From Chamaelirium japonicum (taxonomy: Eukaryota; Streptophyta; Magnoliopsida; Liliales; Melanthiaceae): a DNA stretch of 64,000 bases. Both the position numbers and the translations under genes were made by a program. The DNA lies in contig OX393553.1 in the NCBI GenBank assembly GCA_947650365.1, forward strand, positions 62,743,055 through 62,807,054, in the 5' to 3' direction. Position 1 is the stretch's first letter. Every line of letters starts with the position of its first letter. Below the pieces are notes generated by a model. It worked only from the letters and a program-made list of their open reading frames with translations. It did no database searches and was not told the origin of the DNA. This document shows positions 11,861-61,630 of this stretch, piece by piece.

Positions 11861-12587
<727 letters not shown>

Positions 12588-12716
12588 GGGTCAGGATCGG
12601 ATGACCCATCAAATTTTGACCCAGCAAATAACCCAGCACCCTTTGATGCACCTAGAGGTTTTAGAATGGGCTGATTTTTTGTAGGCATGTTGTCTATGGG
12701 CTGAAAGTATAGTTGG
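12588..12716. repeat. Single arm related to the foldback elements
   Basis: CACCTAGAGGTTTTAGAATG followed by a TGGGCTGATTTTTTGTAGGC-like stretch mimics the order of motifs in an arm of the neighbouring foldback element and of 25388-25774. No partner arm is present. Confidence 0.35.
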
Positions 12717-12724
12717 AGGTTATG

Positions 12725-13588: not shown

Positions 13589-13596
13589 AGGTTATA

Positions 13597-14792: not shown

Positions 14793-15083
14793 TTAGGACC
14801 ACTTGGGTCTCTTTGGAGATGCTTGGTCACCACCGTTCGCGTCGTCGCTGCCCCTTTCAATTCCGTCGACGTCGAGGCTAGGGAAGATCTTATGCGCTCT
14901 GCTGGATTCCGAACTGTCGTACCGGAGGATGTTTGTCACGATGGCGTTGGTGGTGAGTTCGGACCTCGGTAGGGCCTTCCTCTCCAAGGCAGCATGCTGC
15001 CCGCAGGAGTCGTCCACGTCCGCAGCATCCCTCAGCCTCCAAAGGACCTCGTTTTTGTCGTGGACGAAGCTGTCTTTCACGGC
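14793..15083 (-). CDS. SRT1: SRT1 window exon 13 (terminal)
   Basis: Two hundred ninety-one nt, phase 0, 96 codons plus TAA. Starts [19 protein letters not shown], contains [12 protein letters not shown] and VTNILRYD (family features), and ends SPKRPKWS. The basic tail could be a nuclear localisation signal (inference). Acceptor CATGCAG. Confidence 0.94.
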   Translation of the reverse strand, partial: AVKDSFVHDKNEVLWRLRDAADVDDSCGQHAALERKALPRSELTTNAIVTNILRYDSSESSRAHKIFPSLDVDGIERGSDDANGGDQASPKRPKWS

Positions 15084-18000
15084 CTGCATGATGCCAAGAT
15101 ATGCTTTGAGATTAGTGTCTACAAAGCATCTATCATTTGTTATCTGAAAAATGACATACCCGTAAAGAATGTGTCGGCAAAATATATATTCTTAATCCTA
15201 AGCCAAGACCATTTTTGTCATAACCATTAATCCATGCATAGACTAGCGCACATATCTTCCCTATGTATATGAGCCTCACATGAGGACACATATATGCTCT
15301 ATATATATTGGCCCATTGGCCCTAATGAGAGATGACTCATTCTCTTCCAAAACCCTAGCCTCACTCTCTCGCTCTCTCACAGGGTATCAGAGCAAAGGTT
15401 CGGCCTCCTCGTCGTTGCCGGCCGTGGAATCTGAATTTGCCTCCTCTCCGATCGGCTGCTCGACACTCTCCGATCTAACACCCATAGTTGTCAAGGTGCT
15501 GTGAGTCGCATAACTAGTTAAAAGAAGGGTTTTGGGTTAAGATTTGAACCTTACTGCTTGAACTATAAATTCAACAGGAATCTTAAAGAATATTCTATCG
15601 CTCAAAGATAAATGCCTCATTGATCAGGAAGATTCACCAAAATATCTCAATCCTATATGACTGATGTAACTTATTTCCACCAAATTCTCGCATCCTTTTC
15701 TTTTGTGGTTATGATATCAGGAAGTATGAGTGGATGCATACAGAAGATATAAGCAAATGAGGTTTAGGATTACATGCACACCATGATACTTTTTCCCAAC
15801 TTATATCATAGGCATATATAACTGAAAAATCTGCCTTATAGGACATGAATTATGAGATTCTATAGATTTTCTTAATTGATGAATCATCTGAGACATAAAA
15901 AACACATCTAACCAATACGGCATGCATCATTACTGTCAGAAAAGTATCATCGATTAATCGTGATTATTACCAAATACATTGCATATACATGGGATGCACG
16001 TTAAATCATCAAAAAGTATAGACCGATGGAATTATAGATAAAGAACTATAATTGATTTATCATATTCTATAATAAACAAGGGTTCGAATAAGCACAAGCA
16101 GTGCATAACATGTTACCAAATAATGCTAAGAGCATGCCTCGAAATTGATAGGTTCAAGATTGCCATAGAGACATGTTTAGGGATAATGATCGACCGTATA
16201 GTATTCTTGAAGCCAGTTTGATTGTTGCAAATTATCTAGGCAGCAATTGTTCAGTCACAAGATTCCTTCTTGATGCATTAGTATGACCTTTCATCATCAA
16301 GTGCACTTAAAAGATGGTTAGAATTCCAAAGTAGGATGATGCGACTGAAACTGCTAACACACACCACCACTAAAGGCAAAAACATGGAGCATAAAATTAA
16401 GCGTACAACTTTGAAAGTTATATTTACTATTCAAATAGGATTTTAACAAGAGTCAGTTGCAATCATATAAGTATTTTCTGTGGTCCAAAAGAAAACTCCA
16501 AATCTTGGGAAAATAGAAATATAAGTGGTCAACCTATGATCTCTCACCTGGAAATCGATTGGCCACTCAATTGAAGTGCATGGGCAGCCACAACCATCGC
16601 TGAAGTTGAACTTCAGTGCCACTTTGAATGACCGTTTCCTTGCTGTCTCCCTAATAAACAACAGGATGGAGAGAAAAGAAACGAAATTGCTTATGAATAA
16701 AACAAGTACATTTCATGAAAAAACTGAGCAAGTTATTACATTGTTAATCACATGAACTTGATCAAGATACCTTTTCAGATAAAATGGTTGCTTATGTAGG
16801 AAGGCAGCTTTTAAGTCTGGTCTCTCAGGGAAGGAAATCTAGCTCACAGCACAAATGTTCATCATGATATAGAGGTTAAATGTGCCATAAAAGAGTTCAA
16901 ATAACAAGCAATATACGTGGAGAATGGAAATTGGAGTTTAAATGCATAACCAGTTTCTCTAGATTGACTTAGTAGAGCTAGCATGGGCAAACAGAAAGCA
17001 GAACTAAGTATGATTATATTACCAACCTTCATGGCTAAATGAGTTATTAAGGTTTAAATAGCAAGCAATATAGTGGTCAAAATTTTACGAACAGTTCAGA
17101 AATAAGTTAAATAACCATCATGTACTGAGGGCAATCGCATATGATACAGCCTTAGTCATATGAACAAAGGGAAAAAGGGGAATATATTACCAATCACAAA
17201 TCATTAATGCAATTGAAAAATCCGAGTAGCTGCAATATACATTAGAGCATGAAGCCAAATATATATAATTACACAATAAAAGCTGAGTTTGATTATATAT
17301 AATCAATGTGGATCCATCGTTAGTTTGTCATGAGGATGACAAATCAACCTGAAGTAGGAAAGACGACACTTAAATGCAAAGAGGTGTCAAGGATCGTTGT
17401 GCACCCATGGAAAATCATGTCTATATAAAGACGATCACAAAAGCTCACTCCGAGAATAAAAGCTGAGTTGAGCTGAAAAACCATCCGTGAAGAAAATAAA
17501 AGACATCCCGAGTCTTGGACCCTTACATCACATGTCACCAGCACCTCCGCTGAAACACAGGGCATGCATTTCCCCCAAAAAGTGATGAATTATCTCCAAA
17601 GTAGCAACAGCAGAGCAGAGATAGGCATAGGAAAGAGAGCTGGCAGGGAATGCAAAGTATGCATTGAAATAGAAATGACCTCGAACGTGCAATACCATTG
17701 GAGAAGCTGAAAGTAGAAACACACAGACACCAGGAGGGTAAAGCGCCACATGCAGAAGTATAAATGACAACCAAAGTGCTTGAAACACTTAATGAATCAT
17801 TGATGCCACACTGGCAGACATGAAGGATGCTAGAAGATAATAGGGCACATGCTGGCGAGTTGAGTAATGTACAAAATCATTCGCATGCATGACACCACTG
17901 CCAAAGTGCCAGAGAAGCCTCTGAAGATGCATGAAGATCCATAGAATTCCTCAACAAAGGAGTGCAACTAAAAGGAAGCAAAGCACAGTGCTCTCTATTG

Positions 18001-21000
18001 TTAACTTGAGGAGATATTGCTGGCACATGTGCCGAATCGTTAGGACAAAATATATTCTTACAAGACCAAAATGAAGCTACACCACACATTTAAGTGGTGT
18101 ATAAGAAAACGAATCACACTCAATACATGAATCATATATAGACAAGTTTGTACAAAATGTACACTAATACAACATGATGCTCATGTACAACCCTCTCAAG
18201 CACAAGGGGTTCCTACATTACTACATATGCTTTCTATTGTTAACTTCAGAAGATATTGTTGGAAACTGTGTCCCGAATCTCGCTAGGGCATAATATACAA
18301 TTACAATAGCATAGCAAGGCTACACCACACACTTAAGCAGTGTAAAATTCCCATAAACAATAACACTCAAAAGTTTGTACAATATGTATACTAGCAACAT
18401 GACGTTCATGTACAATCCTATCAAAACTCAATGGAAAATGGAAATTACATAGAATGAGAGTGGAACATTAGAAGAATATGTTTGTATGAAAGTGACATTC
18501 AAAGGCTCCCCTGAGGATGAATAGAAGATGCTAAGGATGCTGCAGAAGCCACTACAATAGCATAGTGAGGCTACACCACACGTTTAAGCTGTGTATAAGC
18601 CCATAAACAATAACAATCAAAAGTTTGTACAATATGTATACTAGCAACATAACGCTCATGTACAATCCTATCAAAACTCAATGGAAAATGGAAATTACAT
18701 AGAATGAGAGTGGAACATTAGAAGAATATGTTTGTATGAAAGTGGCATTCAAAGGCTCCCCTGAGGATGACTAGAAGATGCTAAGGATGCTGCAGAAGCC
18801 ACTACAATAGCATAGTGAGGCTACACCACACGTTTAAGCTGTGTATAAGCCCATAAACAATGACAATCAAAAGTTTGTACAATATGTATACTAGCAACAT
18901 GACGCTCATGTACAATCCTATCAAAACACAATGGAAAATGGAAATTACATAGAATGAGTGGAACATTAGAAGAATATGTTTGTATGAGATTGACTTCCAA
19001 AGGCTCCCCTAAGGGTGAATAGAAGATGCTAAGGAAGCTGCAGAAGCCAGTGAGAGGAGAAAAAGAGTATATACAGAAATAGAATTGCAGGGCTACTACA
19101 CCACATGTCTCCACGAGGCTGGTGTTGAGTTGTTGTCAATATCACATTCAAAGAAACTTATTGGCCGATCGATTAGACAGGAAAATCGGCCGATCAGTTT
19201 GGGAGCTTGTTGCAAGGCCTAAATGGGAGAGTGGATGACTACAAGTCGGTGTACATGATAAAAGAGGATTCTCCAGGGGCTGGCGATTATCCAACGATGT
19301 GTTTTCACCAGTGATAGAACTATGGTTTTGAAACTCGGTCGATACTGAGTCGTACCAGTCAAACGGAACCGATACCCCTCCCCGAATCCAAAACCAGACT
19401 CGTATCGGCCGATACATGTCCGTATCGATAGAGTCAGACAAATATCAGCTAAGTGGGGCTAGTTTCGAGCACATGGGTTTTTTTGGCTTTTGCCCCAACC
19501 ACTTATATAAGAGGAGGCTCGAGTATTGTTTCTTCACACCAAGCATAGATAAGAGAGCAGAGAAAATAAGAAATAAGAGAGAGGAGAGGAGAGAAAAAGA
19601 GAAGAGAAAAAAAAAAGTGAGAAAAAAGAGGAGAAAAAGAGAAGGGAGAAGACAGGTGAAAATAAGAAAGAGGAGAGGAGAGAAGAGAGAGAAAAGATTA
19701 GAAAGAGTCAACATGTCGAGTTCTTCTAGAACTTATAAATAGAAAATGTTGTAGAAAGCGAAAATGTTACAGAGAGATAATGTTGTAGTGCTGTAGAGAG
19801 TGAAAATGTCAAAGAGATAATGTTGTAGGTTAAAAAAATTCCAGAGTGAGAATCTTGTATATAGAATGTGTTATGAAATTATATATGGTAGAGAGAATGT
19901 TTTAAAGAGAAATTTCTCTACAATAAGTTGGAGAGAGAACATTAATGTTGTAGCGAGAGAGTACTTTGTTGAGAGAATATGTTATAGTTTGTTTAGATAG
20001 AATGTTTTATTACTTTGACAATTATTTCAATGTCGTATACATGATGGGAACATGCATTGCACGTTCCGACCATATTGACAATTTATATATTATCGCACCC
20101 AGCTTTCTGATGTGGTGAACCACACACATGAAAGTAGTAGATATAATATGTTATCGCACTCAACCGTCCGATGTGGTGAATCACACTTAGCCCTCCAATT
20201 TCGTAAATCGCACTTGGCACTTGGCAGTTTGATGCGGGTAATCCTTCTAGGTCATTTGATACAAGCAATCCAGCTCGATGCACACCAAAGTTTTTGTGGT
20301 GTGTAGCACAATAAAGTATTGTAGAAACAAAATGTTGTAGGTAGAAAATGTTTGAAGAAATGATTTTTACAAATTGACCCCTAAAAACTTCCTTATTACA
20401 TATAAATCCTGCAAAATCAATATTTATATATAAACTTTGAGAACTCGGTTTCGGTTTCGGTTTCGGTCCGACCCCCGGGGATCGGTTCAGCTACTTCGGC
20501 GGTTTCGGACGGAGTTTTGGTGGCTTCGATTCTTTATTAAAAAATAATTTTAAAATAAAAAATTTTATTAAAAATTAATTATTCTTATTTTTATTGATTT
20601 TTTATAATTTTTGTAAATTTTTATATATTTTTACTATTTTTCTAATTTTTACCCTATTTTTTCTATATTTTTTGTATTCTTTAGATTTTTTATCTTATAA
20701 TAGTATTATATATAGTATATTTTATAACTTATCAGTTATAACTTATAATTGATAAGTTATCAATTAGTAGTGCATGCTCGTGCCTGTCGGCACTGAAGCG
20801 GGCAGCCTTCGGTGGCAACACACATGTCGACACTGCAGCGGGCCTCCTTCGGCGGCAACACACCTGAAACGCCTTCGACAACAAAATACTTTCAACGACA
20901 ACACCGGCATTCATAAGGACACCCATTTCCTCGGCCGTGCCGAGTGGCACGAAGCGGGTGCCTTCGACGCGACCAACTCTCCCTCCCCCTATAATCGATC

Positions 21001-24000
21001 AATCACAGCTGTCTCTGTTCGAACGGATTCCTCGAGATCGACCCGATGGTTTGGGACGGCTGAAATTTTAGCAGGCGGTTTAATAGTCGTTGATGCGAAC
21101 AACGATTAAGGGACGAACGGTCAGGTTTAGTGCAATTTCAATGGGCCGGGATTTTAGGGGTTTAGTGCAGTTTAAATGGGTTGGGATTTGAAACCAAGGA
21201 GAGATCATGCGTTGATTTTTAACGAATGATTAGATCTATTCGATTCATTTTTTTTTTCAATCAGCTTGTCCTAGTCAGCTTTTTTGTTTCGTTTTGTCTA
21301 GTCAGCACAAAACCGACGTCCCTTGTTAGTTTTGAATGGTTAGATCTATTCGGTTCATTTTTGTCCAGTCAGCTTGTTCTAGTCAGCTTTTTTGTTCCAT
21401 TTTGTCCAGTCAGTACAAAGCCGACGTCCCTTGTTATATAGACTACTGCATGCCTGTGCCTGTCGGCAATGCAACGGACCATCTTCGGCGGCAATACATC
21501 TGTCGGTACTGCAACGGACCACCTTCGGCGGCAACACACCTGAACACCTTCGACAAAAAAACATTTTCGACAACAACACCGGCATTCATAGAGACACCCA
21601 TTTCCTCGCTCGTGTCGATTGGCACGAAGCGGGCGCATTTGGCGCGACCAGCTCCTCTTCCCCCTATAATCGATCAATCACAATTGTCTCTATTCGAACG
21701 GATTCCTCAAGATTGCCCCGATAGCTTGGGGTGGTCGAAATTTCAACAGGTGGGTTTATAGCCATTGATGCGAATAACGATCACGGGATGAATGGTCAGG
21801 TTTAGTGTAGTTTAAATGGGCCAGGATTTTAGGGATTTAGTGCAATTTAAATGGGTCGGGATTTGAAACCAAGGGAGCTAGGGAGTTGGTTGATGGGGAA
21901 ATAGAGATCGTGCGTTATTTTTGAACGAATGGTTAGATCTATTCAGTTCATTTTTGTCCAGTCAGCTTGTCCTAGTCAGCTTCCGTTTTGTCTAGTCAAC
22001 ACAAAACCGACGTGCCATGTTATATAGATAACCTATAACCTAAATCAGAGCAGAGTTAAAAGGGGTGGGAGTGGGATCGGTTTAGGGTTTTACAACCCTT
22101 TTGGCAACGGTGACCAGGAGGAAGTGGAGAGAGAAAGAGAGAGGCAATGGGGACGACGGATCGGTCGATGATGACCTGGATGGCGGATCAGGGAGGCGAC
22201 GAGGACATGCTTTTTTTTCTTCTCTTCTCCTCTCCTCTCCTCCTTCTCTTCTCTCCTGTAGACTGAAACCAGGCGGAGGGGTATTATCGGGCCAAAACCC
22301 GATCCGAAACGGATCAGTTTCAGTTTCAGACGAAACTTTAAACCTTGATATAAACCCTTCATATTATCCTTATCTTGCCTACCGACCCTCTGCTAATAAC
22401 CATTAACAAATTCCTGACCTAAATGTGAAATGACGAATTTACCCTCACCTTTGGTTACCTTAATCAACCATCTTTATTGGAAATGGGCTTAACCAGAATT
22501 TCACATGGACCAAAGTCGAATCTAACTTAGACCAAACCCTAAGTATCACCACTTAGAGGGGTATTTATGGGTTTAGAAGGGTAAGAAATAAAAGAATAAA
22601 TAGTTCTTAATAATAATTACCAAATAAAGGAATATTCTAGGAATATTCATTTATTTTCCACGTTAGTTAACTGCAAGAGTCGATATGCAAGCCTAAGAGA
22701 CTCGAAGGGGTTTATATGTAAACATTGGAATTAGAGGGTTTATATGTAAATATTAATAAAAGAGAGTATATGTTATAGAGATAAGATATATGGTAGAGAG
22801 AATATGATAGAGAGGGTATATTATGTTATAGAGACAGTCTATAATATATAATGTAGAGAGAGAATATTATAGAAAGAGAACAATAAAGAGAGAAAATTGT
22901 TGTAAAAAGAAAATGTTGTAGAGCAAGAAAATATGGTAGTGAAAATGTTTTTGATACAAATGGTTATAAAGAGAACATTATAGAGAGAATATATGCTATA
23001 GTTGTTTTAGAGAAAAAAAAAAATGTCGTCAATGATTCTTTTAAAAATTAGTGTTCTGTACAGTTGTATGAAGATTATTTGGATAACATGTACTTGAAGA
23101 ATCTTCCTCAAACAGGCACGTATTGCACGTGCCGTCAACTAGTAGTAACAATAGAAAAGTATTGTAACGACTTACTTGACTCACTATGCAATCATCATAC
23201 TACAAAGCAATCAATTGTGTAGTGGTGCAGTCACTTCACCATCAGAGCTTCAACTTCAGAAGAGCATAAATGAAGATTGAGTCAGCAATGCCATTGGCAA
23301 TTGGTCCATCCTAATTTGTAAGTCCCCCACTTCCTGGGAAAGATATAACAGTATGTCATTCTTTTCTTTTCTTTCTTGTATTTTTTTGGTTCATTCTATG
23401 TTTCCTAATTGTACTCCTACCAACAGGAATTAGAGCTCGGTCTCCTTACCGAGACTCAAACCTACAACCACCGCTGCTAAAGGGATGCCAACAACAGGGC
23501 TAACCCCCATTGGCTGTTTGTCAGTCCCAGTTCTTACTATCCAAATAGAATTGAATTTTCTATTTCATCATGATCAGTCATTCCACCACCTCATAAACTT
23601 CAATCAAACAACAGATGTGATATCTAAGTTTGTTCGCACCCAGTTCTTTCAAGATCACACAAAGCAATATGAGATCTGCTACCACATTATGCAACATCAC
23701 TTCCACTCTGACACGACATTTCTCCAATGCATCTATCTGATCAGCCGACCAATTTGCTGGTGTCTTCATGAAATCACATACACTAAAGGATCTCAAACTT
23801 CTTTGAAGATATATTAGCAGCTCCACCATCATCATCTCTTCAAGTTGAAAATCATAACTCAAACGAATTACAGGTCAGACTTTTTTTCAGCACGAAAATA
23901 CATGTGGCAAATATATGCTTGTTTTACGAAGTTGAAGCTGCAATAAACGATATGCCTTGGGTTAGGAAGGAGGAGCCGTATATTGGGTTATTAAACCTGC

Positions 24001-24912
24001 TAAAATAAATAGCAATTTATCTACCCCTCACAAGCGTTTGAGGTATGGTTTGTTACTCAAAAGGTAGTATTTGTTCTTCACTAAAACACCTAACAAAATA
24101 CAAATAAATTCCATACCTAACAATTGAAGCCAATAATAACAAACAGCTGTTGCTCGAAATTTGAGAAAATTTCAGAACCTCACTAATCAGAACAGAAAAG
24201 GTCTACACCTGAAATCGAAATTAAATTCTGGGTCCACAAAACAAACCAACTTCATAGGCATATAAACATGTTTTTAAGGTAACATTAGATAGTATTTCTA
24301 CCTCCACTGACTTGACAAATGGCAGTGGAGCTCGTGGTCCATGTATACTCGCAATCCTGAGGATCCATTTCACGTAAATTTTCTCTGCAATGACAGTGAA
24401 TAGACTGCATGGTGAGATCAGATAAGTGCTTTTTTCCTGGCTGCTAATTTAAATTAAATTGCAACAAAGAGCAATATAAATTGTTTGAGAAAAAGGATTA
24501 CTATCACAACTTTTTATTGACCTCAAGTGTGTCAAATTAAGCATCAAAAGCTGATCTAAAGTTCTATTTGCAAAGAAGAAAATCTGTAAGATGGCTACTA
24601 TGTAACAATTTTCAACTAACTTTCAGGATTAATAAGTTAATACAAAGCTTGTTCAACTTTCAAGAGACTTTGAGGCTATCATAGACGCTCTGAAATGAAT
24701 CCAAACAGCTCACTTGGTTGAAGTGATAACCAACCAAAAATATATCACCAAATGAGAAAAAAATACAAAGCTTCATGAACTAATCTTGAGGAACAGATAC
24801 AAGGTAGATTGTGTTAAGTTGTACTTACAGTATAACTACTAGTACATAGTACATACATCCCCACACATAGTAGTGAAGTGATATCCAATGAAAAATACAT
24901 CACCAACTTAGA

Positions 24913-24951
<39 letters not shown>

Positions 24952-25233
24952 AAGAGGGTTGTTACGGTGTGGCGTGCGGTGTCGCACCGCAGCCCTCCGA
25001 TGCACTGAAATGAATCCAAACAGCTCACTTGGTTGAAGTGATAACCAACCAAAAATATATCACCAAATGAGAAAAAAATACAAAGCTTCATGAACTAATC
25101 TTGAGGAACAGATACAAGGTAGATTGTGTTAAGAGGAAGTTGTACTTCTAGTACAACTACTAGTACATAGTACATACATCCCCACACATAGTAGTGAAGT
25201 GATATCCAATGAAAAATACATCACCAACTTAGA

Positions 25234-25265
<32 letters not shown>

Positions 25266-25349
25266 GGTTGTTATGGTGTGGCGTGCGGTGTCGCACCGCA
25301 GCCCTCCGATGCACGGTATGCACCCGCAGCATGCGACACCGCACACCGC

Positions 25350-25383
<34 letters not shown>

Positions 25384-26687: not shown

Positions 26688-26775
<88 letters not shown>

Positions 26776-32700: not shown

Positions 32701-34304
32701 CACGTTGGACTTGCTACATTGTATGTGCAGGCATACAGCATTTTCACATATACCACTTACACAAAAATTCATCATATACGCAGATACGATAAGAAAGTAG
32801 TTGCCGAAACAAGTTGTGCCAAGAACCAAAGAGAATCAAGCCCTCTAAAAGGTACTATACAGTCCTTCAAACTATCAGCAGACCATCAGCATATCATAAC
32901 ATTCTGATTTATATGTAACCATTATATAAGAACATTGCACAGATAGAGCTGTAAAATCATTTGACATACGGAATTAACTAGTTTGCAATGGAAGAGTATA
33001 GTCCGATACTATTCCAGTAAATAACTATCGATATACTGGCAAGGAAAGAGTAAAGACCACCTGAAGATTTACTATAACAATCTGCCCCCCGCCACGAATC
33101 GCCTTTAGTGGCAAGTTGCACGCAGGCGTGATCTGCAAACTGCACATAGCAGACTAGCAGAGTGAGTTGGAAGACAATCTTTGCTTAAGAATATTGACAC
33201 AGCATTTATCAGAACATCATGGGCCATACATGATTCCAAAATTCATATGCATAAAAAAGACAATACAAATATCTTTTTAAATTTACGTGAATTCCTATTT
33301 CTAAGAGAAACATTCAGATCAAATTAAGTAATCATGAAGCAGAAAAGTATAACTTATATTCTTATGTAGAACTAGAACTTTCTTTCTCCCTAAGTAAAAA
33401 GCCATCACAAACCCCCATTCAACTATAAAAGGCCAGAGGCGAATCCGTTCACGGTCCTACAGACCAACACCATTCGAAGGTAGATGGCCTGCCCCATCTA
33501 GAATAGGAATCTTTGATTATGCTTACACACATTCACTCACTTACACTGTCCCCCCTCAGCTCACCCTAGCCCCGGGTACGTCGTCTCCAAGACTTCACAC
33601 AAAATCTTCACTGACAACATAGGCATGCTTGAGTCAGGGTGGGGGTCAGGCAGAACCGTTGTTGCCTGATGGGAACTTCCCCCATATTGTTATCAATGTC
33701 TTCATGTCGCACGACCTCTGTCTTATTCGATGATATATCCAAAGAAAAGGCATTTTACTGTATCTATCTTGTCTTATATCAAATATTGGTTTACTAGATC
33801 CACATCATTTATTAATCAACTAGTGTTTTACTTATATTTCGATCTAAAATTGAGAAAATAGGGGAATCAATGAAAAAAGTAATGGTTTTATTTTAAATTA
33901 TTATAATTATGATGTGAAACAACGGAGGTATGGCCAAAGATGAATTACAAAAGGAATGCAACAATCATAGTAACATCAATGATAAAATAAAGGCCTATAA
34001 CAGGTCAATTCCGGATCCCATCTACATCTGATTTTTGTATGTCCCCAGCTTCCAAAACTTAAAAAAAAAAATGCTTCTTATCTTTCCTTGTCCATTATCT
34101 GAAAAGTTGTATGTTCACCACCAAAAAGACTTATCCCTCAATTCTAACAATATGAATATCTTCATTATCTCTGTTAGAGTGTGTATATACTTAGCTTTGT
34201 ATAGGTTAGATTTATTCTTTCTTGGGGTATGTTCACCTTGGGTGACCTCATCTCATGTACAGCATATATAGGCTCATTGTCCCACTGAGTTTGATCAATC
34301 CTTA

Positions 34305-34373
<69 letters not shown>

Positions 34374-48833: not shown

Positions 48834-48898
<65 letters not shown>

Positions 48899-51299: not shown

Positions 51300-51379
<80 letters not shown>

Positions 51380-54300
51380 AAATGAACACATCCAGAGAGG
51401 CCAGTAGAATATTAAAGAAGACATTATATCAGCCGTCAAGTATGACAACTTTATTTGAAATATATCGGAGGTAAAGTTAAAGACCTACTCTAATCCACAA
51501 GAAAGGCATATTTCCCTGAAGGAATTTCCATGCAATTCAGCAAGTTTCTCCCTCGGTATTCCAGATCGAAGATGAAGGCTATCAACATTCTGTCAAATAC
51601 GAGTTCCAATACAATTGTAAGACTAGGTGCACAAATTAAAATGAATAACCTATGAAGTTCATGATAAGCTCACAGCAAAGTATAATTAACACTCATTGTG
51701 GAATGCTTGTGAATTAGCTACTTTATGTACCATGTTAGCACTTCAATATCCCGTACTTTTGTGGAGAACCAACTTGGAAACCAGGTTTAAGTATAGAACC
51801 CATATTGTCACTTTGTTCCTGAAATGCAATAGTTTAGTTACACCTGGGAGTGGGTCTATTACCCCTTTCATTGTGATCCTTACATTAACCATGAGAAATT
51901 TAACAATATGAAAGATTGTCACAATAATTAGACAAACTAGAATTGATTAATTTCAATAAGGGATCTACGGATAAGAATGTTTTGTGTCCAAGAGGTAAAT
52001 TTGAGGATCTGGGTAATACTAGAGCAAGTCATAATGCACAATCTAGGCAAAATTCATCAAGATGATGCCCGGCATGTAAAAGGTGCTGCTTAAACTAAGG
52101 CACCTTTCTAAAGAGTAACTAAACTAACTCATTAAGCAACTAGAAATGTGATGATTCTTGTGTTCTAGGGATCCAAAAATCCAAAAGCAAAAATGGCAAA
52201 TAAATCAAAGATAAAAAGGAAGGGGAAATCGACTGTGGGTTGAAAAACTATCACCCGCTCGTTGTCCACGTGGCTTCATAGATGATCAACACGTGGGATC
52301 GCGAATACTCGGTACAAGCCAGCCTAGAGGTAGATTGAACACAATACGAAAGAGGTATCCAAGGAAACGGACTAAGCTCTGCTCAGCTAGCAATGGACAC
52401 GAGGAACACGGCCCATGGCGACCGCGCAAGTCTGACTAGGGCTGCAACTCTGGTTGAGTTGAGGTCAACCCTAACCCAACCCTAAATTACAAAATGTCAA
52501 ACCTAACCCAACCTCGGGTTGAAAAAACCCAACCCTAACCCTAACCCAACCCAAGGAACCACTCCCTAACCCAACTCAACCAACCTAAATTGGCCCGATT
52601 TGGGTAGGGTTGGGTTGGGTTCAGTCGGTTAGATTGGGTCCCTGAAACAAAACTATTACGGCATGGAGAGATCATTGGTTGCTGCTAGAATCAAGGGCTT
52701 GAGTTTTGGATTATTAGATTGTGGCAGACAAGGTTCGAAATTTCCATTTCGGTCAATATTTCGACCTCCTGGAAAATGGAAATATTTCGTGGAAATATTT
52801 CGATAGTGTGGAAATATTGTGATTTGATGGAAATGGTGGAAATATTGATTTTTTAATGGAATTTTTGAATGAAACTCTGGATAGTCATAAACTAAGTATA
52901 GATACACGTTTTAGAACACTCAGATAATATTTATACCCTATCTACGGGTGTAAAGCATCACAAAGCATGTATTTAGTATTTGAGTCTGTGAGTCTTGTGC
53001 AGTCTTGTTTGGTCCTGTTTTGATCTATGTTTTTAAAATGCTTTTTAATCTTTTTTGTGGAGAAAAATATTTCCAAAATAAAGATTAGTTGATTGTTAAA
53101 TAAATGCTTCAAACGATTTTGAAAATGAACTTAAAACAAGAAAGTTGTGCAAGTTTGAAATCGTGCAAAAATTATGCTGAAATGCAAAACACTGTTTTTT
53201 TACTAAGTCTGAAAAAATGAGTTTTTATAAAGAAAAGTTTTTATACATTCAAAATTTTCTTTGACGGACCATGGTTTTCTAGATGTACTTGTAGTTCTAC
53301 ATCTTGTGGAATTTTTTGAGCTAAAAATGAGTTGATTTAACCACTTTTCTCAACATACAAATTTTATGAAAAACCGAAAAAACTGTTTTCTCCTACTAAA
53401 ACTGAAAACCTACTTTTTGATTCACTTGGTTTTTGATTTTTTTGATATTTTTATTGAAATCAAATGGGGGGGTATTTGCTTATTTACATATAATAACTTA
53501 AAGTAAATGGAGAAAATAAAAATTAAGTAAGACGACATTTACTTAAATGTTATTATATGTAAATAAGCTGCTGAAACCGAAACCCCCAGTCCCCTTTCAT
53601 AACCAGTCAGTCCCAACATTTCGGTGTTTAAATCCCGAAATGTCTCGAAATTTCACGAAATGTCCCGAAATATCCACGAAATATCGCGATATTTCGTGGC
53701 AACAAATATATCGCACGAAATATCGCGATATATCGCGATATTATCGTGAATCCTATTTCGTTCGATATCACACTACGAATTTCGTGCCGAGGTTTGAGAA
53801 AACCGAAATATTTCGCGATATTTCGCGAAATATGTCGAGATTTTGTACCTTGGTGGCAGAGGACATTGACGTCTGTATTTAGAAGAAACACTTTCACATA
53901 GGGAAGTTGCAAGCCCCTTGCATCACAAACAAATAAATGATTATAAGAGATAGCTTTGATTCCAAGGTCCAGAGAATGGAATACATTTAAAATACAAGCT
54001 TTGTTTAGACAGTTGTGCAAAGAAAGATCCTCACAATCAAGAAACTTGCTAAATGAGGAACCTATATGAAGAAGAAATTATCATTTTGGTAAAGAATGAA
54101 TCATGTATTCCCCAATTAGATCATATGTTTTCTTGAGGGTTGTTTGGCAACAAGATATTGAGATTGGACATGATTTGTCATCTTGACCAAGAGGTACTTT
54201 ATCATTGAATTTTGTCATGGAAATTGACATCTTATATCAAAAACTAGGAAAGAAGGCAGAGAAGGATAATGGAGGAAACTCTAAAAAGACAATCTTTCCA

Positions 54301-57300
54301 TATTCAATAACCGAGAATTTGAAAAATATTTTTTGTATGTCATCAGATATATTGTGGTTAACAGTTTCGACCGACTAAAAGACACAAACAAACCAGCCGA
54401 AATGTAAATGTTTTCAGCTTTATCAACCAAAATTGGCCAAAAACATGATTTTCAATTCTGTCTGGCCAAAAATTAGAAAGAAAATATTTAATGCAAAATT
54501 TCCCATACCAGCAATTTGGCCTCGTCAAGCTAGGAAGCATAGGTTTGGAATAAAAGACACCCCTATGTTTGATGGATTATGATATTCCTTCGCTTTATGA
54601 GTGCTATCGTTGTAATCAAACCATTGACAACCTATCAAACTGTGTTGCGAACATTAGAGAGTTTTGAACATCACTGCATTGATGAATACATTATCGATCA
54701 TGTTATAGGAATAAATGTTGAGGACTAATCATTCAAAATTATTGAATCATGCCTTCTGGTATTTTCATGAAACCCTTCATCTTCAAATTCTGCATTTCTA
54801 CTATGGCGCATAGACAATATTCTTAGTTCTCTATCAATCCATAATTAGTTCACAGAAATCCGTCACATACAATTTTTGTTTTCATGAATGCAAGCACAAG
54901 TCCAGTCAAGTTTATATCCGGAGATCCGGACTAACATAAATTGTTAATCACAAAAATAACGGGGAATATGTTTTCAATGAGCCGGGGTAGCTTAACAAAA
55001 CTATATAATTTTTGTTCTCCTCACATTCTTGTCCACATGCAAATTTCTTTCTTATATAAGAACACCACACTATTATGTCATATACTTCACTACTTTTGAA
55101 GAACATCAAAATGGAATCCCTTCACTCTCATTCAAATACAAGCCTCTGAACTTTATAGGATGATGAATAGAATACGAAACCGAAAGCTGGAGTTACATAA
55201 TAGGCCTACGTGAGGCAGCGTTGATGTATGTAGAAAAGCTGATTACTGTTTTCAGCTGTGCACGAAAATTGATGCATCTGATTGAAAAAATAATTAGTTC
55301 ATCTTGTTGCTCTTTTTATTCTGAACAACTTCTGTTCTTATTTCATGTCGATCGGATGAGTGAATCGTAAGTTATGATCATTTCTATTGTAGGCTAACTC
55401 AAGTGCGAGAGTAGTGTTCTCACCAACTTTGCTAAGTGGCTAATTAGTAAATGAAATAGGCATCGTCGGATGGGTCTCATCAAAGGATGAGATTAAAAGA
55501 ACTTTAACTCGCGATCAATGGACGCGATTAAAGATCCTTCGGGATGGATGGATGGGATCAAAAGAAAGCCCAAGAGAACCCAAAACCTAACCCTAGCCGC
55601 ACCCCCTCTCCCCCCTTTCTTCCGTGCGGCTGCCTCGGTTGGCGTGCCCGCAGGAAGGAGTGGACGCTTCCTCCCCTTCGGTCGGTTCTCTCTCCTTTTC
55701 TCTTTCCTTTCTTTCTTTGGATAGGATAGATCCAGGGCCCCGGGCCCCTCCACTTGATCTAACGGCTCCTATGCATCTCCTATGAAACCCTAATCTTATT
55801 AAAAGGGATATTTGATAGAGTATTTTCACATCTAAATTTTGGAAAAATAAACCCTTATTTTCCTCGAGTGTTCTTCGCAGGATCAAGAAAACCTTCTTCA
55901 ACGAATTTTCCTCGCATCTTTGTCTCTTCTTCTTGATCATTGGCTTCGATCTCCCCGCCCGACTTCATCTCGTTTCTAGCAAATGATCACTGCTAGAAGG
56001 CTTCTACCTCATAGATCGTCATCAACTTGGCTTTGGATATCCCTCTTCTCGATCACACTCGTCCCTCCGCCACTTCATCTCAAGCATCGGGCGTTCCTCA
56101 CACAGTCGGGTTTCGCCAAGGTATTTTTTGGGTTACGGTCATCAGGTATCTTCTATCCCAAGGTAGCCATAGGAATAGATCCTGATTTTCTTGACCTTAC
56201 GGCCATTTTATTGCTCTTCATTAAGATTTTTTTGTTTGTTGTCCTTTCATCACAGCAGTCCTATTTTGGCCTAAAAACCCTCCCGGTTGCATGAAAAGTT
56301 AGATCCATCCATTGGGGGACTTATCCGAAGTTTATGCCTATGTTTTGATCATCTTTTTGTTAATTTCAACATGTTTAAATATCAAATCTGATCTGAAATT
56401 GAATGTTAGCAAGGCCATAAATATTATAAGTGTGATCTTTGAGTAGCTAGACTTGCTTGTATTCATTGGAGACTTGCTTAGTTACTAATTTATAAAATTA
56501 CGCACTTATAGTATTGTCGAAAACATTGTTTAAATCTCACTTTAATCTTTCATTTGTATGCATTCATTAATTTAGCAAATTCATCTGCATCAAGCGTCAT
56601 GGGTGTTTCTCTTCGATCTAATATGTTATGTGGCTACAACTAATTCTATCAAGTGTCATCGATGTCAAAAATCCTCGAAGCAACTAATTTTTTCATATCT
56701 TCTTTTACTAAAGGAGCAATGCATAATTACACCAGCCTTGTAGTTCCCAGTCAACAAATTCTAATACCCCAGTCCCCATAATTTTCTTCACCAATAGAAC
56801 CAATTTATTCTATCAAAAAAAAAAAATAGAACCAATTTATCATGCAGATTTTGCGTAAGCCATTAGCACAAATCAACACATTGCTTTACTTAAATTACTT
56901 CTTCCAACAAAAAAACCAAATTGTCGGGGAGGAATTCTCAAAAAAAAAAAAAAAAAACAAATTGCTCTGGGTAAAATAACTGCTGTATAGATTACTTTGA
57001 ATATTCACCTAGGTAGAAGACTGGGTATAAGATTAAGCATGAGTAACATATTGACATTACCTGGCTTATAATAAACTTCAGGATACCAGCTCTCTCCAAT
57101 TCAACTAAAGCCATATGAGTCAAACTTGGCATAGCACGATTAAATGGTAGTGATGCTTCGGGCACCCCCTTACCCTCACGCTGCATCATGAAATACGCAA
57201 ATCAGTAAATCGTTTACAGAAAGGATACATATTTCAAACAGTGTATCAAAAAATTGCATACTAATAAGCAATTTGTTAGCACACCGCTCAGTAGCATTCT

Positions 57301-60300: not shown

Positions 60301-61630
60301 TAAAATTTTTTTTTTTTTTTTTTTTTGGGGGGGGGGGGGGGGGAGGGGGGTTCGGATTTTTTTTTTTCTCAACCGGTATCAGTCCGTATCGACCTGTACC
60401 GGTACGTACCGGTCGGTACATACCGGTTCGGAGCCGACCGATACCGTGATTTTAAACCTTGCTTGATGGTCCTTTGTGGTAATTATATAGTATCGAATTT
60501 CATGAGCAAGACTACTCACTTCAAGGTATTCGATTGTCTGCTCTCCCCATGAAATCGCAACTCAAGCTCCACATCATTTTAAGAGGCTCCACTTGACACT
60601 TGAGGGTAGGGGTTTGCACTTCGCACCTTAAGCATGAGCCATATGACCTACTTCTCAGGAATGCGGTCGGTAAATTGAAAAAGAAAACTATACTATTGAT
60701 TGTTCAGGACGACAGAGATAGGTCATTGAGTTATTTATGGAAATCTTCTCAATCGAGAAAGCAAAGAATCAAAAACTCGTGATCAAGTCTGTGTCAGCGG
60801 AAACAATGTCACATGTAATCTTGCATATGATAACTCCATCAAAGGAAAGTTTGGTGTTTCCTCAAATGATCTTGTAAAAGTTTTTTTTACTGCTGATTGA
60901 ATTTTATTGCCCTGCACTATCTGGCTTTTAATTTAACTTTTTACTTCTCCAGGACAAACGATAGCTTCTCGTGCAAAAAAGGAGTTGAAGGCGAAAGACT
61001 AGTACAATCACTGAATAAAGGCAGTCATTTAATGCACTAATCTGTGACTCGTATGGAGCATAGATATTATGCTCGTTTTAGTTGGATTGGCTAAACTTCC
61101 AATTTCCTAGATAAATGAGTTTCGCATCTCCATAAAGATGAATGACCAAGTAACTACACGGTGGGTTGGAATCCAGAAAAAACAATTTTATATAGAGCTA
61201 TCAGTTGCCCCTACCTCCCTATCACACCAACTTAAATCATGTAGGCAGGTCCATGTGGCTCCTTGCTAGCCACATAATGACATAAGTGAATTAGAAAAAC
61301 TCTTCCCCGCACAAAAACAAGAACCCAAATTTTAAGCTATGATTTCAATGTTGTAGTTATGCACAGAGAACTATTTTATATACCTGAAGTGTCCAAATTC
61401 CCTTAGGTCCACGAAAATCAGGAATACCACAAGAAGTTGAAATCCCTGCCCCTGTGAATGCCACCAGATGTCTACTCTGCAACCACAAAGGATGAACACT
61501 CCAAACACGTAATATGAGAGCCATGCAACTTACAAAATACTAAATATCCTCAAGTCCAAGAAACAAGTCATACGGTTGTCACAGACTAACGGTCTCAAAC
61601 CTTTTGTATGATCATGGCAAGCTCTTCAAT
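14793..61630 (-). CDS. SRT1: SRT1-type NAD-dependent protein deacetylase (SIRT6-like), 13 exons in window
   Basis: Sirtuins remove acyl groups from lysines using NAD; plant SRT1 is nuclear and deacetylates histone H3 (H3K9ac in rice). I assembled 13 minus-strand exons with GT-AG borders and matching phases, 1305 nt in all. The 434 window-coded residues contain the NAD loop [15 protein letters not shown] (19-33), QNVDSLH (81-87), the catalytic H101 in ELHGNSF, zinc ligands C109, C112, C134 and C139, [13 protein letters not shown], then the plant SRT1 C-terminal region with NFSDGCGC. Exon ends agree with SRT1 order from memory. The first coding exon (~33 residues, normally starting MSLGYAEKLS) is not in the window. 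Full length would be ~467 aa, near the usual 470-480. No stop or frameshift: likely functional. Promoter not visible. Confidence 0.95.
15084..16547 (-). other. SRT1 intron 12 with a short LTR and primer-binding site
   Basis: 1464 nt. A plus-strand LTR-like segment (about 15171-15381, TGTGTCGG to CTCTCTCACA) with TATATATA is followed by GGTATCAGAGC at 15383-15393, complementary to initiator tRNA-Met as in copia and TRIM elements. The segment after it (to about 15500) is leader-like. No second LTR was found; the rest is unassigned. Confidence 0.5.
16548..16650 (-). CDS. SRT1: SRT1 window exon 12
   Basis: One hundred three nt. Completes the Arg codon and encodes [14 protein letters not shown], then [20 protein letters not shown], a signature of plant SRT1 C-termini. 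Acceptor TTATTAG, donor CAG|GTGAGA. The intron to exon 11 is 120 nt. Confidence 0.95.
16771..16838 (-). CDS. SRT1: SRT1 window exon 11
   Basis: Sixty-eight nt. Encodes [16 protein letters not shown] then QPFYLK and two bases of an Arg codon. Acceptor GAGCTAG, donor AAG|GTATCT. Confidence 0.92.
17995..19050. repeat. Tandem repeats of about 250 bp
   Basis: Three close copies start ACAATAGCATAG at 18303, 18554 and 18804 (periods 251 and 250). A more diverged copy precedes them from about 17995, sharing CTATTGTTAACTT and GGCTACACCACAC-type segments. All contain GTTTGTACAATATGTATACT or a variant. Non-coding. Confidence 0.85.
19051..20427. repeat. TIR-like start plus GA-rich and ATGTTGTAGAGAG-rich DNA
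   Basis: CTATGGTTTTGAAACTCGGT with CGATAC motifs lies at about 19320-19435, resembling the left end of an hAT-like element; no right end was found. A purine tract (about 19553-19700) and a stretch of ATGTTGTAGAGAG-like phrases (19740-20000) follow. GGAACATGCATTGCACGTTCC at about 20048 is palindromic. Confidence 0.45.
20436..22347. mobile_element. hAT-like element, GGTTTCGG ends, with an internal duplication
   Basis: Flanked by a perfect 8-bp duplication ATATAAAC (20428-20435 and 22348-22355). The left end has repeated GGTTTC; the right end has GAAACGG and CAGTTTCAG and closes AAACCTTG. Inside, a segment of roughly 600-660 bp is present twice (from about 20766 and from about 21440), each starting near GTGCCTGTCGGCA and including TATAATCGATCAATCACA. 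No transposase was seen, so it is non-autonomous. Confidence 0.65.
22356..23114. other. AT-rich body before the Helitron-like terminus
   Basis: Rich in ATGTTATAGAGAG-like phrases similar to 19740-20000. It may be the body of a non-autonomous Helitron; the 5' TC end was not identified. Confidence 0.3.
23115..23142 (+). mobile_element. Helitron-like 3' terminus
   Basis: A hairpin (GGCACGT / ACGTGCC, arms at 23115-23121 and 23127-23133) is followed nine bases later by CTAG and then T. Helitrons end with a short hairpin, then CTRR, and insert between A and T. Confidence 0.6.
23590..23840 (+). pseudogene. Copia RNase H C-terminal remnant
   Basis: Across frameshifts the plus strand reads [18 protein letters not shown] and then, in another frame, [18 protein letters not shown]. 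These fit the end of copia polyproteins (TKHIE-type and ADxFTKxL-type motifs). Stops and frame changes show decay. The reverse-strand ORF over it is a shadow. Confidence 0.6.
24302..24384 (-). CDS. SRT1: SRT1 window exon 10
   Basis: Eighty-three nt. Completes a Lys codon, then encodes [18 protein letters not shown] and PLPFVKSVE. Acceptor TTGCAG, donor GAG|GTAGAA. This starts the plant-specific region C-terminal to the catalytic core. Confidence 0.93.
24691..25314. repeat. 315-bp tandem duplication ending in a MITE arm
   Basis: Copies start TGAAATGAATCCAAACAGCT at 24691 and 25006. Both end in (TA)n(GA)n and the left arm of the GTGTCGCACCGCAGCC hairpin MITE. In copy 1 the arm stops at CCGATGCAC and abuts copy 2; in copy 2 the MITE continues into its right arm. 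Confidence 0.9.
25263..25350. mobile_element. Hairpin MITE, second full copy
   Basis: Left arm GTGGCGTGCGGTGTCGCACC and right arm GCATGCGACACCGCACACCGC fold back on each other. It lies between (TA)n(GA)n and (ATT)n microsatellites, the same setting as 11735-11858. Confidence 0.75.
25351..25384. repeat. (ATT)n microsatellite
   Basis: About 11 ATT units joining the hairpin MITE to the next foldback element. Confidence 0.95.
25388..25774. mobile_element. Foldback element with nested sub-repeats
   Basis: Starts GTTCTCCTAAGGGACGTACC and ends TCCCTTAGGAGAAC. Each arm contains CCTCTAGGT next to an AATTTATAA-like motif, and an inner inverted copy, the same layout as 12033-12432 but a different sequence. 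A GT microsatellite follows on the right. Confidence 0.75.
25797..26692. mobile_element. TIR element with a GC-rich interior
   Basis: Left end ATATAGGCTGACAGCCTATT and right end ATGGGCTGCCAGCCCATACC form imperfect TIRs, with a shared ATTAGCCATTCGAT-like inner part. The interior (about 25910-26570) is GC-rich, unlike the AT-rich intron, and has an inverted repeat centred near 26097. Reverse-strand ORFs of 84-155 codons there look compositional. A TA microsatellite abuts the right end. Confidence 0.55.
26693..26773. repeat. (TA)n microsatellite
   Basis: About 80 bp of TA at the right edge of the preceding element. Confidence 0.95.
27020..27950. repeat. Diverged tandem repeat split by a GGACACG-rich insertion
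   Basis: Repeats of about 130 bp carrying TTTAAGCACCCCTTTGCACA and GGTTTCCCTTATATCAAA occur at about 27040-27175 and 27775-27905, with a partial third. Between them, about 27176-27775, is a segment starting AAGAAGCACGGACACGGACA and ending in GTGTCGGACACGGACACG and GTGTCGGTACTTC, like the elements at 41277 and 46890. Its target duplication is unclear. Confidence 0.55.
28321..28414 (-). CDS. SRT1: SRT1 window exon 9
   Basis: Ninety-four nt. Encodes [18 protein letters not shown] then [13 protein letters not shown] and one base of the next codon. Acceptor GATCAG. Two donors overlap (AAAAA|GTAAGG and AAG|GTGAAC); the first was chosen because only it keeps phase with the next exon. Confidence 0.93.
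28415..32109 (-). other. SRT1 intron 8, 3695 nt
   Basis: 28415-29399 shows nothing recognisable. 29400-31690 contains RTE-type LINE remnants. 31691-32109 shows nothing recognisable. Confidence 0.7.
29400..31690 (-). pseudogene. RTE-clade LINE remnant
   Basis: Minus-strand fragments occur in LINE order. An endonuclease piece at 31674-31492 ([32 protein letters not shown]) comes first. Next is a reverse-transcriptase piece near 30610 ([17 protein letters not shown]). The C-terminal part is at 29798-29607 ([28 protein letters not shown]) and continues out of frame near 29540 ([11 protein letters not shown]). Many stops and frameshifts. The unrelated-looking stretch at about 29880-30540 may be a later insertion. 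It lies in the same orientation as the host gene. Confidence 0.75.
32110..32163 (-). CDS. SRT1: SRT1 window exon 8
   Basis: Fifty-four nt, phase 0/0, encoding [18 protein letters not shown]. Acceptor TCTGCAG, donor AAG|GTATCC. Confidence 0.95.
32164..33060 (-). other. SRT1 intron 7, 897 nt
   Basis: AT-rich, with a short (TA)n tract near 32416-32440. Nothing else recognised. Confidence 0.7.
33061..33139 (-). CDS. SRT1: SRT1 window exon 7
   Basis: Seventy-nine nt. The first base completes the Ser of GTS. Encodes [18 protein letters not shown] then QIVIVNLQ, a conserved strand-loop of the Rossmann fold. Acceptor GTGCAG, donor CAG|GTGGTC. Separated from exon 6 by the largest intron, 10,679 nt. 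Confidence 0.96.
35518..36626 (+). pseudogene. Copia gag and protease-region remnants
   Basis: 35518-35844 encodes a gag-like stretch ([40 protein letters not shown]) of the UBN2 type. 36423-36626 holds [12 protein letters not shown] at the place of the protease DSGA motif; the catalytic Gly-Ala is not seen. Stops and frame changes separate them. Confidence 0.6.
36741..39795 (-). mobile_element. Minus-strand LTR element, internally shortened
   Basis: Two direct repeats begin TGATGTAGG at 36741 and 38989 and share several hundred bases. On the minus strand the copy at 38989 is followed by TGGTATCAGAGCAAT (38985-38971), a tRNA-Met primer-binding site, so it is the 5' LTR. The 3' LTR (38070 to 36741, 1330 bp) has TGATG/CATCA ends. 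Only ~0.9 kb lies between them, too short for pol. Text before the 3' LTR reads like gypsy C-terminal sequence (AAGGATGAGTTTTTCGTAG). The outer ~530 bp of the 5' LTR seems lost near 39795. Confidence 0.65.
41277..42435. mobile_element. hAT-like element, CGGATACGG ends
   Basis: 1159 bp. TIRs CTATGAAGCACGGATAC / CTAAGAAGCACGGATAC; flanks CTGACGCG (41269-41276) and CCGACGCG (42436-42443) match at 7/8. Both ends are arrays of GGATACGG-type motifs. A ~143-bp foldback MITE (about 41598-41741, GGATAAATTGCAC / GGGTAAATTACAC) is nested inside. A GC-rich segment follows at 41800-42060. Confidence 0.7.
42821..43556. mobile_element. hAT-like element, CATAGTCACCAA ends
   Basis: 736 bp with TIR CATAGTCACCAA at both ends and a perfect 8-bp duplication CTAGCAAT (42813-42820 and 43557-43564). 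A second inverted repeat (ACCAAATTCGGCGTTTT) lies near 42933-42990. No transposase. It ends 255 bp from SRT1 window exon 6. Confidence 0.8.
43819..43898 (-). CDS. SRT1: SRT1 window exon 6
   Basis: Eighty nt, starting in phase 0 and ending after two bases of a Ser codon. Encodes [15 protein letters not shown] then [11 protein letters not shown], part of the nucleotide-binding fold. Acceptor CTTGCAG, donor TAG|GTAATA. Confidence 0.96.
45932..47806. mobile_element. hAT-like element, ATATTTCG ends, copy 1 (interrupted)
   Basis: Ends CAAGGTTCGAAAT and TTTTTTGTACCTTG. Flanks CTAAAATG (45924-45931) and CTGAAATG (47807-47814) match at 7/8. Without the inserted 46890-47623 element and its duplicated 8 bp it measures 1133 bp, close to the 1124 bp of copy 2. 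A poly-G run lies near 46674-46686. Confidence 0.8.
46890..47623. mobile_element. hAT-like element, CGGACACTC ends, nested
   Basis: 734 bp. Ends CTAGGAAGCATGGACAC and GTGTCAGTGCTTCTTAG, with a perfect 8-bp duplication GTTGGTAC (46882-46889 and 47624-47631). It interrupts copy 1 of the ATATTTCG element. Related to the elements at 27176 and 41277 by its terminal AAGCA(C/T)GGA. Confidence 0.85.
48832..48895. repeat. (CT)n microsatellite
   Basis: About 60 bp of CT. Confidence 0.95.
50724..50832 (-). CDS. SRT1: SRT1 window exon 5: second zinc Cys pair
   Basis: One hundred nine nt, starting with the last base of the split Glu codon. Encodes [18 protein letters not shown], then CSNLKC (zinc ligands), then [10 protein letters not shown]. 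Acceptor ATGAAG, donor GAG|GTCAGT. Confidence 0.96.
50884..51290. mobile_element. MITE with ~75-bp TIRs containing CTACTCCATGGAGTAG
   Basis: Left end GGGTAGCCTACTCCATGGAG and right end CTCCATGGAGTAGAGTAGGC are imperfect inverted copies extending through the CCACATG(T)GGCACTTTT-like inner part. The palindrome CTACTCCATGGAGTAG occurs inside each TIR. Confidence 0.75.
51272..51407. repeat. Perfect 34-bp inverted repeat around (TA)n
   Basis: Arms 51272-51305 (CTACTGGCCTCTCTGGATGT...) and 51374-51407 are exact reverse complements; the 68-bp loop is TA only. The left arm overlaps the MITE end, so the right arm looks like a second, truncated element end facing it. Confidence 0.9.
51489..51589 (-). 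CDS. SRT1: SRT1 window exon 4: catalytic histidine and first zinc Cys pair
   Basis: One hundred one nt. Encodes [16 protein letters not shown], then AELHGNSF with the catalytic His, then CLSC. It ends with two bases of a Glu codon. Donor GA|GTAGGT; the in-frame TAG formed by the donor shows the exon must end there. CLSC replaces the CPSC I recall as usual. Confidence 0.95.
52729..53852. mobile_element. hAT-like element, ATATTTCG ends, copy 2
   Basis: 1124 bp, CAAGGTTCGAAAT to TTTTGTACCTTG, with a perfect 8-bp duplication GTGGCAGA (52721-52728 and 53853-53860). It aligns with copy 1 along its length (GATAGTCATAAAC(C/T)AAGTAT, TATTTGCTTATTTA). The right end is a dense array of CGAAATATCGCGATATTTCG motifs. 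No ORF for a transposase. Confidence 0.88.
55485..56295 (+). repeat. GC-rich LTR-like or leader-like region
   Basis: Resembles 63325-63780 in layout: GATGGGATCAAAAGAAAGCC or variant, AACCCTAACC(C), a CCCCCTC-rich block, then GAAACCCTAAT and a TC-rich leader. No terminal repeats were located. Confidence 0.35.
57061..57180 (-). CDS. SRT1: SRT1 window exon 3
   Basis: One hundred twenty nt, phase 0/0, 40 codons beginning [19 protein letters not shown] and ending [10 protein letters not shown]. Acceptor GATGCAG, donor CAG|GTAATG. The final Gln starts the QNVD motif completed by the next exon. Confidence 0.97.
57181..61383 (-). other. SRT1 intron 2, 4203 nt
   Basis: Contains the 284-bp hAT-like element at 60178. 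The rest (57181-60169 and 60470-61383) is AT-rich with no recognised gene or element. Confidence 0.7.
60178..60461. mobile_element. hAT-like element, ACCGGTACCG ends
   Basis: 284 bp with a perfect 8-bp duplication CTTGATGG (60170-60177 and 60462-60469). Ends CAGGGTTATAAATCTCGG and CGTGATTTTAAACCTTG. Both halves are arrays of ACCGGTAC, CCGTATCGG and GGCCGGTACC motifs. The centre is a T run followed by a G run (about 60307-60350). Confidence 0.85.
61384..61476 (-). CDS. SRT1: SRT1 window exon 2: NAD-binding loop
   Basis: Ninety-three nt, phase 0/0. Encodes [17 protein letters not shown] followed by [14 protein letters not shown], the cofactor-binding loop of sirtuins. Acceptor GGTTGCAG, donor CAG|GTATAT. 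The intron to exon 1 is only 124 nt. Confidence 0.97.
61601..61630 (-). CDS. SRT1: SRT1 window exon 1
   Basis: Thirty nt, phase 0 at both ends, encoding [10 protein letters not shown]. Acceptor AACTGCAG, donor AAG|GTTTGA. It is a micro-exon and was accepted because it joins in frame to exon 2 and matches the family segment just before the NAD loop. Confidence 0.85.

Follow-up and report, generated by a model that had tools for sequence, protein, structure and literature searches.

An intact SRT1-type sirtuin gene with large, repeat-bearing introns in Chamaelirium japonicum

The window analysed here, a stretch of 64,000 nucleotides of contig OX393553.1 of Chamaelirium japonicum, holds on its minus strand a gene that we assign to the plant SRT1 group of SIRT6-like sirtuins. 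Spliced alignment and border inspection delineate 13 exons running from 61630 to 14793, a span of 46,838 bp. Joined together, they give a coding sequence within the window of 1,305 nt, i.e., 434 open codons followed by a TAA stop, and all 25 splice borders within the window are canonical (12 GT donors and 13 AG acceptors). The exons were located by protein-to-genome spliced alignment with a purpose-written procedure, using an AtSRT1 sequence as template. They are listed below in gene order, numbered from 2 to 14, together with the longest intron.

61601..61630, minus strand: SRT1 exon 2, 30 nt (spliced alignment, AG/GT borders)
61384..61476, minus strand: SRT1 exon 3, 93 nt, with the GAGIS and GIPDFRG motifs (spliced alignment; donor reproduced with the SIRT6 template)
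57061..57180, minus strand: SRT1 exon 4, 120 nt (spliced alignment; donor reproduced with the SIRT6 template)
51489..51589, minus strand: SRT1 exon 5, 101 nt, with QNVDSLH, the catalytic His in LHG and the first CxxC (motif search, both templates, SIRT6 alignment)
50724..50832, minus strand: SRT1 exon 6, 109 nt, with the second zinc Cys pair (both templates, SIRT6 alignment)
43819..43898, minus strand: SRT1 exon 7, 80 nt, whose end falls within the Ser codon of GTSLQ (both templates, splice-site check)
33140..43818, minus strand: SRT1 intron 7, 10,679 bp, the longest, within the catalytic core (exon model)
33061..33139, minus strand: SRT1 exon 8, 79 nt (both templates, splice-site check)
32110..32163, minus strand: SRT1 exon 9, 54 nt (both templates)
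28321..28414, minus strand: SRT1 exon 10, 94 nt; an alternative donor gives 28316-28414 (spliced alignment)
24302..24384, minus strand: SRT1 exon 11, 83 nt; an alternative acceptor gives 24302-24382 (spliced alignment)
16771..16838, minus strand: SRT1 exon 12, 68 nt (spliced alignment)
16548..16650, minus strand: SRT1 exon 13, 103 nt (spliced alignment, border inspection)
14793..15083, minus strand: SRT1 exon 14, 291 nt counting the TAA stop at 14793-14795 (border inspection, corrected model)

The alternative division of exons 10 and 11 (99 and 81 nt) is likewise in frame and adds one residue. It should be noted that the method avoids stops and is blind to frameshifts within exons; the exons nonetheless align full length to the template. 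The alignment to AtSRT1 also returned four spurious pieces, of which one lies upstream of the gene and the other three downstream. A motif search in six frames places GAGIS and GIPDFR near 61.4 kb, and a further sirtuin segment near 51.5 kb, all on the minus strand. When a segment of human SIRT6 served as second template, exons 5 to 9 came out identical at both ends and exons 3 and 4 agreed at the donor side, the start of exon 3 lying 12 nt early (a local start) and the acceptor of exon 4 being 6 nt off; three spurious pieces then followed, where human SIRT6 ceases to resemble the plant C-terminus. The score of this alignment, 598.6, lies far above that of the plus strand (207.5) and those of four shuffles in two-base blocks (231-240), which argues that the exon model is not due to chance.

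The 12 introns in the window (introns 2 to 13) measure, in gene order, 124, 4203, 5471, 656, 6825, 10679, 897, 3695, 3936, 7463, 120 and 1464 bp, and make up 97.2% of the span. Eight of them are longer than 1 kb and four are shorter than 900 bp; six exceed 3.9 kb. Four exceed 5 kb beside the 434 open codons, i.e., the combination of several introns above 5 kb with a conserved coding sequence that marks a gene with repeat-expanded introns. An earlier note on this DNA had proposed 13 exons of 30-291 nt between exactly these two ends, 97% intron and introns of up to 10.7 kb, and the exon model reproduces each of these figures.

The predicted product matches the Pfam SIR2 family with 98.9 bits (cut-off 24; E 4.4e-28). 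In a search of solved structures, the best match is human SIRT6 (2.9e-76), the top ten sequences are all SIRT6, and SIRT7 comes next (2.3e-50); of the 22 sequences that reach 1e-30 or better, the remaining 11 are prokaryotic Sir2 proteins. Thus, the closest solved relatives are SIRT6 and then SIRT7, not SIRT1-5, as is expected of a SIRT6-type protein. The alignment to human SIRT6 shows that the His of LHG, the four Cys of the CxxC...C...C pattern and GTSLQ are all kept; we take these to be the catalytic His and the four zinc ligands. Identity to AtSRT1 is 268 of 429 aligned residues. On these sequence comparisons, the product is a SIRT6-like sirtuin, plant SRT1, with a putative NAD-dependent nuclear histone deacetylase activity, and the claim that the deacetylase is intact in its catalytic and zinc residues stands.

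The first exon of the gene probably lies beyond base 64000. The N-terminus of AtSRT1 scores 23 in 61631-64000, where the shuffles have a median of 25 (n=100). Over the whole minus strand it scores at most 37, the same as the top shuffle of the short region; exon 1 was not found within 61631-64000. A piece at 61969-62013 that the first spliced alignment had offered as an upstream exon was discarded as spurious. Published SRT1 genes have 14 exons in AtSRT1, in OsSRT701 and in two Brassica genes (PMC12826482), and the 13 exons seen here plus one fit this number, suggesting that exon 1 is outside the window. The gene would then be longer than 46.8 kb, with an intron 1 of at least 2.37 kb. By eye, the stretch at 63300-63900 is GC-rich and carries AAACCCTAA boxes and a TATA-like box on the plus strand, as though a different gene or element had its promoter or 5' end within SRT1 intron 1. 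At the other end, the 2.3 kb past the stop (12501-14792, minus strand) contain no AATAAA, only AATGAA and AATAAT further down.

Downstream of SRT1, positions 1-12000 form a GC-rich block (55-56%) with a CpG observed/expected ratio of 0.95, compared to 0.39-0.80 in the SRT1 introns, and with strand asymmetry (AT skew of +0.39 at 4-8 kb). It includes the following open reading frame:

2265-4097, minus strand: 611-aa ORF with a plant mobile domain (PF10536, 3.3e-14)

No match above the curated Pfam cut-off was obtained for 12 further ORFs of this flank, one of which (14158-14610) is located just outside the block. A 36-bp GC-rich unit is repeated in tandem about 22 times at 9573-10359, within long ORFs on both strands, and a formin-homology-like match there, below the cut-off, is probably an effect of composition. 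Judged from its sequence, the block looks like a younger mobile element.

Self-comparison revealed two LTR-type pairs in intron 7, one nested in the other, which have the following parts:

34173..34326, plus strand: outer element, 5' LTR-like repeat (84% to 42598-42748; K2P 0.154 over 151 sites)
34378..34389, plus strand: outer element, primer-binding-site-like TGGTATCAAAGC, an exact match just inside the 5' repeat
42575..42598, plus strand: polypurine-tract-like run of 24 G after GAGAAGGA, directly before the outer 3' LTR-like repeat
42598..42748, plus strand: outer element, 3' LTR-like repeat, pairing with 34173-34326
36740..37540, minus strand: nested element, 3' LTR-like repeat (80% with gaps to 38988-39800; K2P 0.185)
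38988..39800, minus strand: nested element, 5' LTR-like repeat, pairing with 36740-37540
38974..38985, minus strand: nested element, primer-binding-site-like TGGTATCAGAGC, an exact match at the inner LTR border

Of the 10,679 bp of the intron, the two elements together account for 8,576 bp. The TGGTATCARAGC pattern, the priming site of initiator tRNA-Met, occurs four times in the window with at most one mismatch, compared to 0.47 expected, and none of 100 shuffles had four or more; its only two exact matches are the sites at 34378 (plus strand) and 38985-38974 (minus strand) in intron 7. The other two, GGGTATCAGAGC at 15382-15393 on the plus strand in intron 13 (one mismatch) and a match at 53953-53964 on the minus strand in intron 4, have no visible LTR pair and are possible further remnants of LTR elements. 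The intron 7 elements share with Ty1-copia elements the LTR pair and the tRNA-Met-type primer site. No gag-pol domain was recognised, as none of the ORF pieces of intron 7 has a Pfam match, and we therefore name them only LTR-retrotransposon-like remnants. Target-site duplications were not recognised by eye for either element. Two readings made by eye were dropped: a gag-like one of 35515-36298, which matches no Pfam family even at E 10, and a BED/hAT-like one of 39816-40100, for which only weak zinc-finger matches below the cut-off appeared at E 10.

Several other introns contain repeats, which are given here without strand:

45932..46873: dispersed 0.95-kb repeat, copy in intron 6 (81% with gaps to 52729-53682)
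52729..53682: copy of the dispersed 0.95-kb repeat, intron 4 (same orientation as the intron 6 copy)
20768..22022: near-tandem duplication of about 0.58 kb, intron 11 (79%)
17989..19049: 250-bp tandem repeat with diverged copies, intron 11 (repeat search, self-comparison)
24684..25314: 315-bp tandem duplication, intron 10 (repeat search, self-comparison)

The two copies of the 0.95-kb repeat are not the LTRs of one element, since they are separated by exons 5 and 6. By eye, 60200-60450 in intron 3 shows a poly-A/poly-C run flanked by repeated CGGTACCGG-type units, possibly a repeat typical of the species. Counted by self-comparison within the window, and thus only in part, repeats make up 14,278 of the 45,533 bp of intron, 8.6 kb of them LTR-type and not all of them transposon. 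After removal of low-complexity pieces, 171 ORF pieces of at least 62 aa and 151 of 44-61 aa were left; eight of each that overlapped exons (or, among the shorter ones, touched them) were excluded, and 163 (150 + 13) and 143 were scanned. At E 0.05, Pfam assigns none of these 306 intron pieces to a transposon family. The names listed for them, 14 and 9 families with one piece each and one more (best E 0.00039), are at chance level and none is a transposon family. Rfam and tRNA scans gave nothing. The description of the introns as full of transposons is therefore supported only in part: by the nested LTR-type elements of intron 7 and by the other repeats, but not by any Pfam transposon family. 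Intron 7 is the only one for which these results show that transposition caused the growth.

The window also contains long homopolymers and dinucleotide arrays (the 24 G at 42575, TA/TC arrays), which are prone to assembly error. That introns were misjoined or wrongly expanded is nevertheless extremely unlikely: the 13 exons of the model all share one strand, keep their order and include no duplicate, the intron sizes are mixed, with four below 900 bp, and the LTR elements nest coherently.

The intronic LTR pairs offer a clock for what has happened to the coding sequence since the insertions, assuming that the two LTRs of one element were identical at insertion and placing half of their divergence on one lineage. 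In the nested pair, 126 of 781 sites differ (K2P as above) and there are 11 frameshifting indels. Neutral drift since this insertion predicts 4.2 stops and 9.2 frameshifts in the 1,302 nt of open coding sequence; none is observed (P ~1.6e-6; stops alone, P 0.015). The outer pair, with its 151 sites and no frameshifting indel, is a much weaker clock (3.5 stops predicted, P 0.030). These values are rough, since the exon model favours open frames, and since LTRs are usually methylated and probably mutate faster than exons, which inflates the expectation. That the coding sequence is intact despite the divergence of the nested LTRs suggests that SRT1 probably stayed under selection with the intron 7 insert in place. 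The clock also bears on the view that this is a recently silenced copy or young pseudogene that still looks intact, a compact working SRT1 being located elsewhere in the genome. The failure to find exon 1 within the window would fit such a copy, but the lack of any stop or frameshift, while the LTR pairs have reached K2P values of 0.154-0.185, speaks against it, save for a very recent loss of function, and we consider this view distinctly unlikely.

The reading that we consider highly probable is that of a working SRT1 gene under selection, whose introns have grown by passive build-up of repeats and insertions while selection kept the exons and splice sites. Growth would have been neutral and would include at least one insertion event, that of the nested pair of LTR retrotransposon-like elements in intron 7. 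Transcription presumably starts at an exon 1 situated past base 64000 and runs through the whole locus, which exceeds 46.8 kb, and the long introns would be spliced at ordinary GT-AG sites. Intronic heterochromatin would be read through by general plant machinery, such as IBM2-type factors, and the encoded enzyme would be active as a deacetylase. In rice, OsIBM2 is needed for the proper mRNA of dozens of genes with heterochromatic introns (PMC7145194).

A connection between SRT1 and transposon silencing, as mentioned in the earlier note, is in print for rice: OsSRT1 binds several families of transposable elements (Gypsy, LINE and Mutator) and represses transposable elements, whose expression rises upon its RNAi (PMC3692531). 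That SRT1 acts on such elements and itself holds intronic repeats is a coincidence unless a regulatory link can be shown. Such a link would consist in the repeat-laden introns, chiefly intron 7, serving as a heterochromatin sensor that couples SRT1 output to silencing, by analogy with IBM1; we regard such a regulatory use as very unlikely. In its specific form, to which we likewise give very little credence, the pathway in which SRT1 acts would maintain intron 7 as heterochromatin, loss of silencing would lead to truncated, inactive transcripts (or the reverse), and SRT1 dose would follow the load of transposable elements. The position of intron 7 suits this idea, as it splits GTSLQ of the core and a transcript ending there would lose the rest of the enzyme, and so does the presence of 46 sense AATAAA hexamers across the 12 introns, a raw count without a chance control. 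It also draws on the action of OsSRT1 on transposable elements and on the precedent of IBM1, in which the long isoform follows the methylation of the intron (PMC11265718). IBM1, a demethylase gene whose sensor is its methylated intron 7, is like SRT1 by anatomy only: each regulates chromatin and has a long intron that interrupts the catalytic domain. Against a sensor speaks the OsSRT1-linked Gypsy LTR half motif GATGGGCCGA, the one motif reported for OsSRT1 targets (PMC3692531), which is not enriched in the window (2 matches with at most one mismatch vs 2.57 expected). Moreover, the intron sequence resembles decaying repeats, and many plant genes carry methylated long introns without a known sensor role. 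If a sensor did exist, a gene that silences transposable elements would be controlled by its own intronic elements, a second case beside IBM1.

Swollen, repeat-filled plant genes are already known, and the SRT1 gene is a good further example. In orchids, MSH1 is 55,035-225,727 bp long, in gymnosperms 82,282-805,861 bp, and one of its introns measures 101,025 bp. Like SRT1 here, it combines a conserved coding sequence with extreme length through intron growth, and the share of transposable elements in its introns correlates with length (PMC10487979). It differs in being much larger and in serving organelle-genome maintenance instead of histone deacetylation. Oil palm EgDEF1, a working gene, has a 36.3-kb intron with the 10.9-kb Koala element (PMC3956824), and thus shares with SRT1 an LTR-type element in a giant intron; it has one giant intron and a known truncated transcript, whereas SRT1 has six introns above 3.9 kb. 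Areca GNMT genes contain introns above 17 and 6 kb (PMC12046898), and heterochromatic introns occur in about 11% of the genes of rice (PMC7145194). In view of these larger repeat-filled genes (MSH1, EgDEF1 and Areca GNMT), the claim of a notable case of intron tolerance is not supported. In white spruce and the angiosperms compared with it, longer introns are mostly one or few per gene (PMC4108047), so that six introns above 3.9 kb make SRT1 a strong, though precedented, case.

The mean intron is 169 bp in Arabidopsis and 447 bp in rice (PMC7145194), and 1,449 bp in coconut (PMC6686914). From the first two values, which are genome-wide means, it is plausible that the SRT1 genes of Arabidopsis and rice are only a few kb long. 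AtSRT1 and OsSRT701 (OsSRT1) are SIRT6-like sirtuins as well, with 14 exons against the 13 in the window, but the introns here total at least 45.5 kb. The literature that we searched for SRT1 gene lengths yielded exon counts, and no length from a monocot with a large genome; the available portion of an oil palm gene-model paper (PMC5591544) gives no intron-length figure.

In summary, a chromatin-silencing enzyme would, on this evidence, join the plant genes that stay intact despite swelling introns. The divergence of an intronic LTR pair provides a clock within the locus itself for selection after insertion. The SRT1 locus also offers a compact test case: repeats in introns may simply build up, or they may in time take on regulation of the gene in which they reside.
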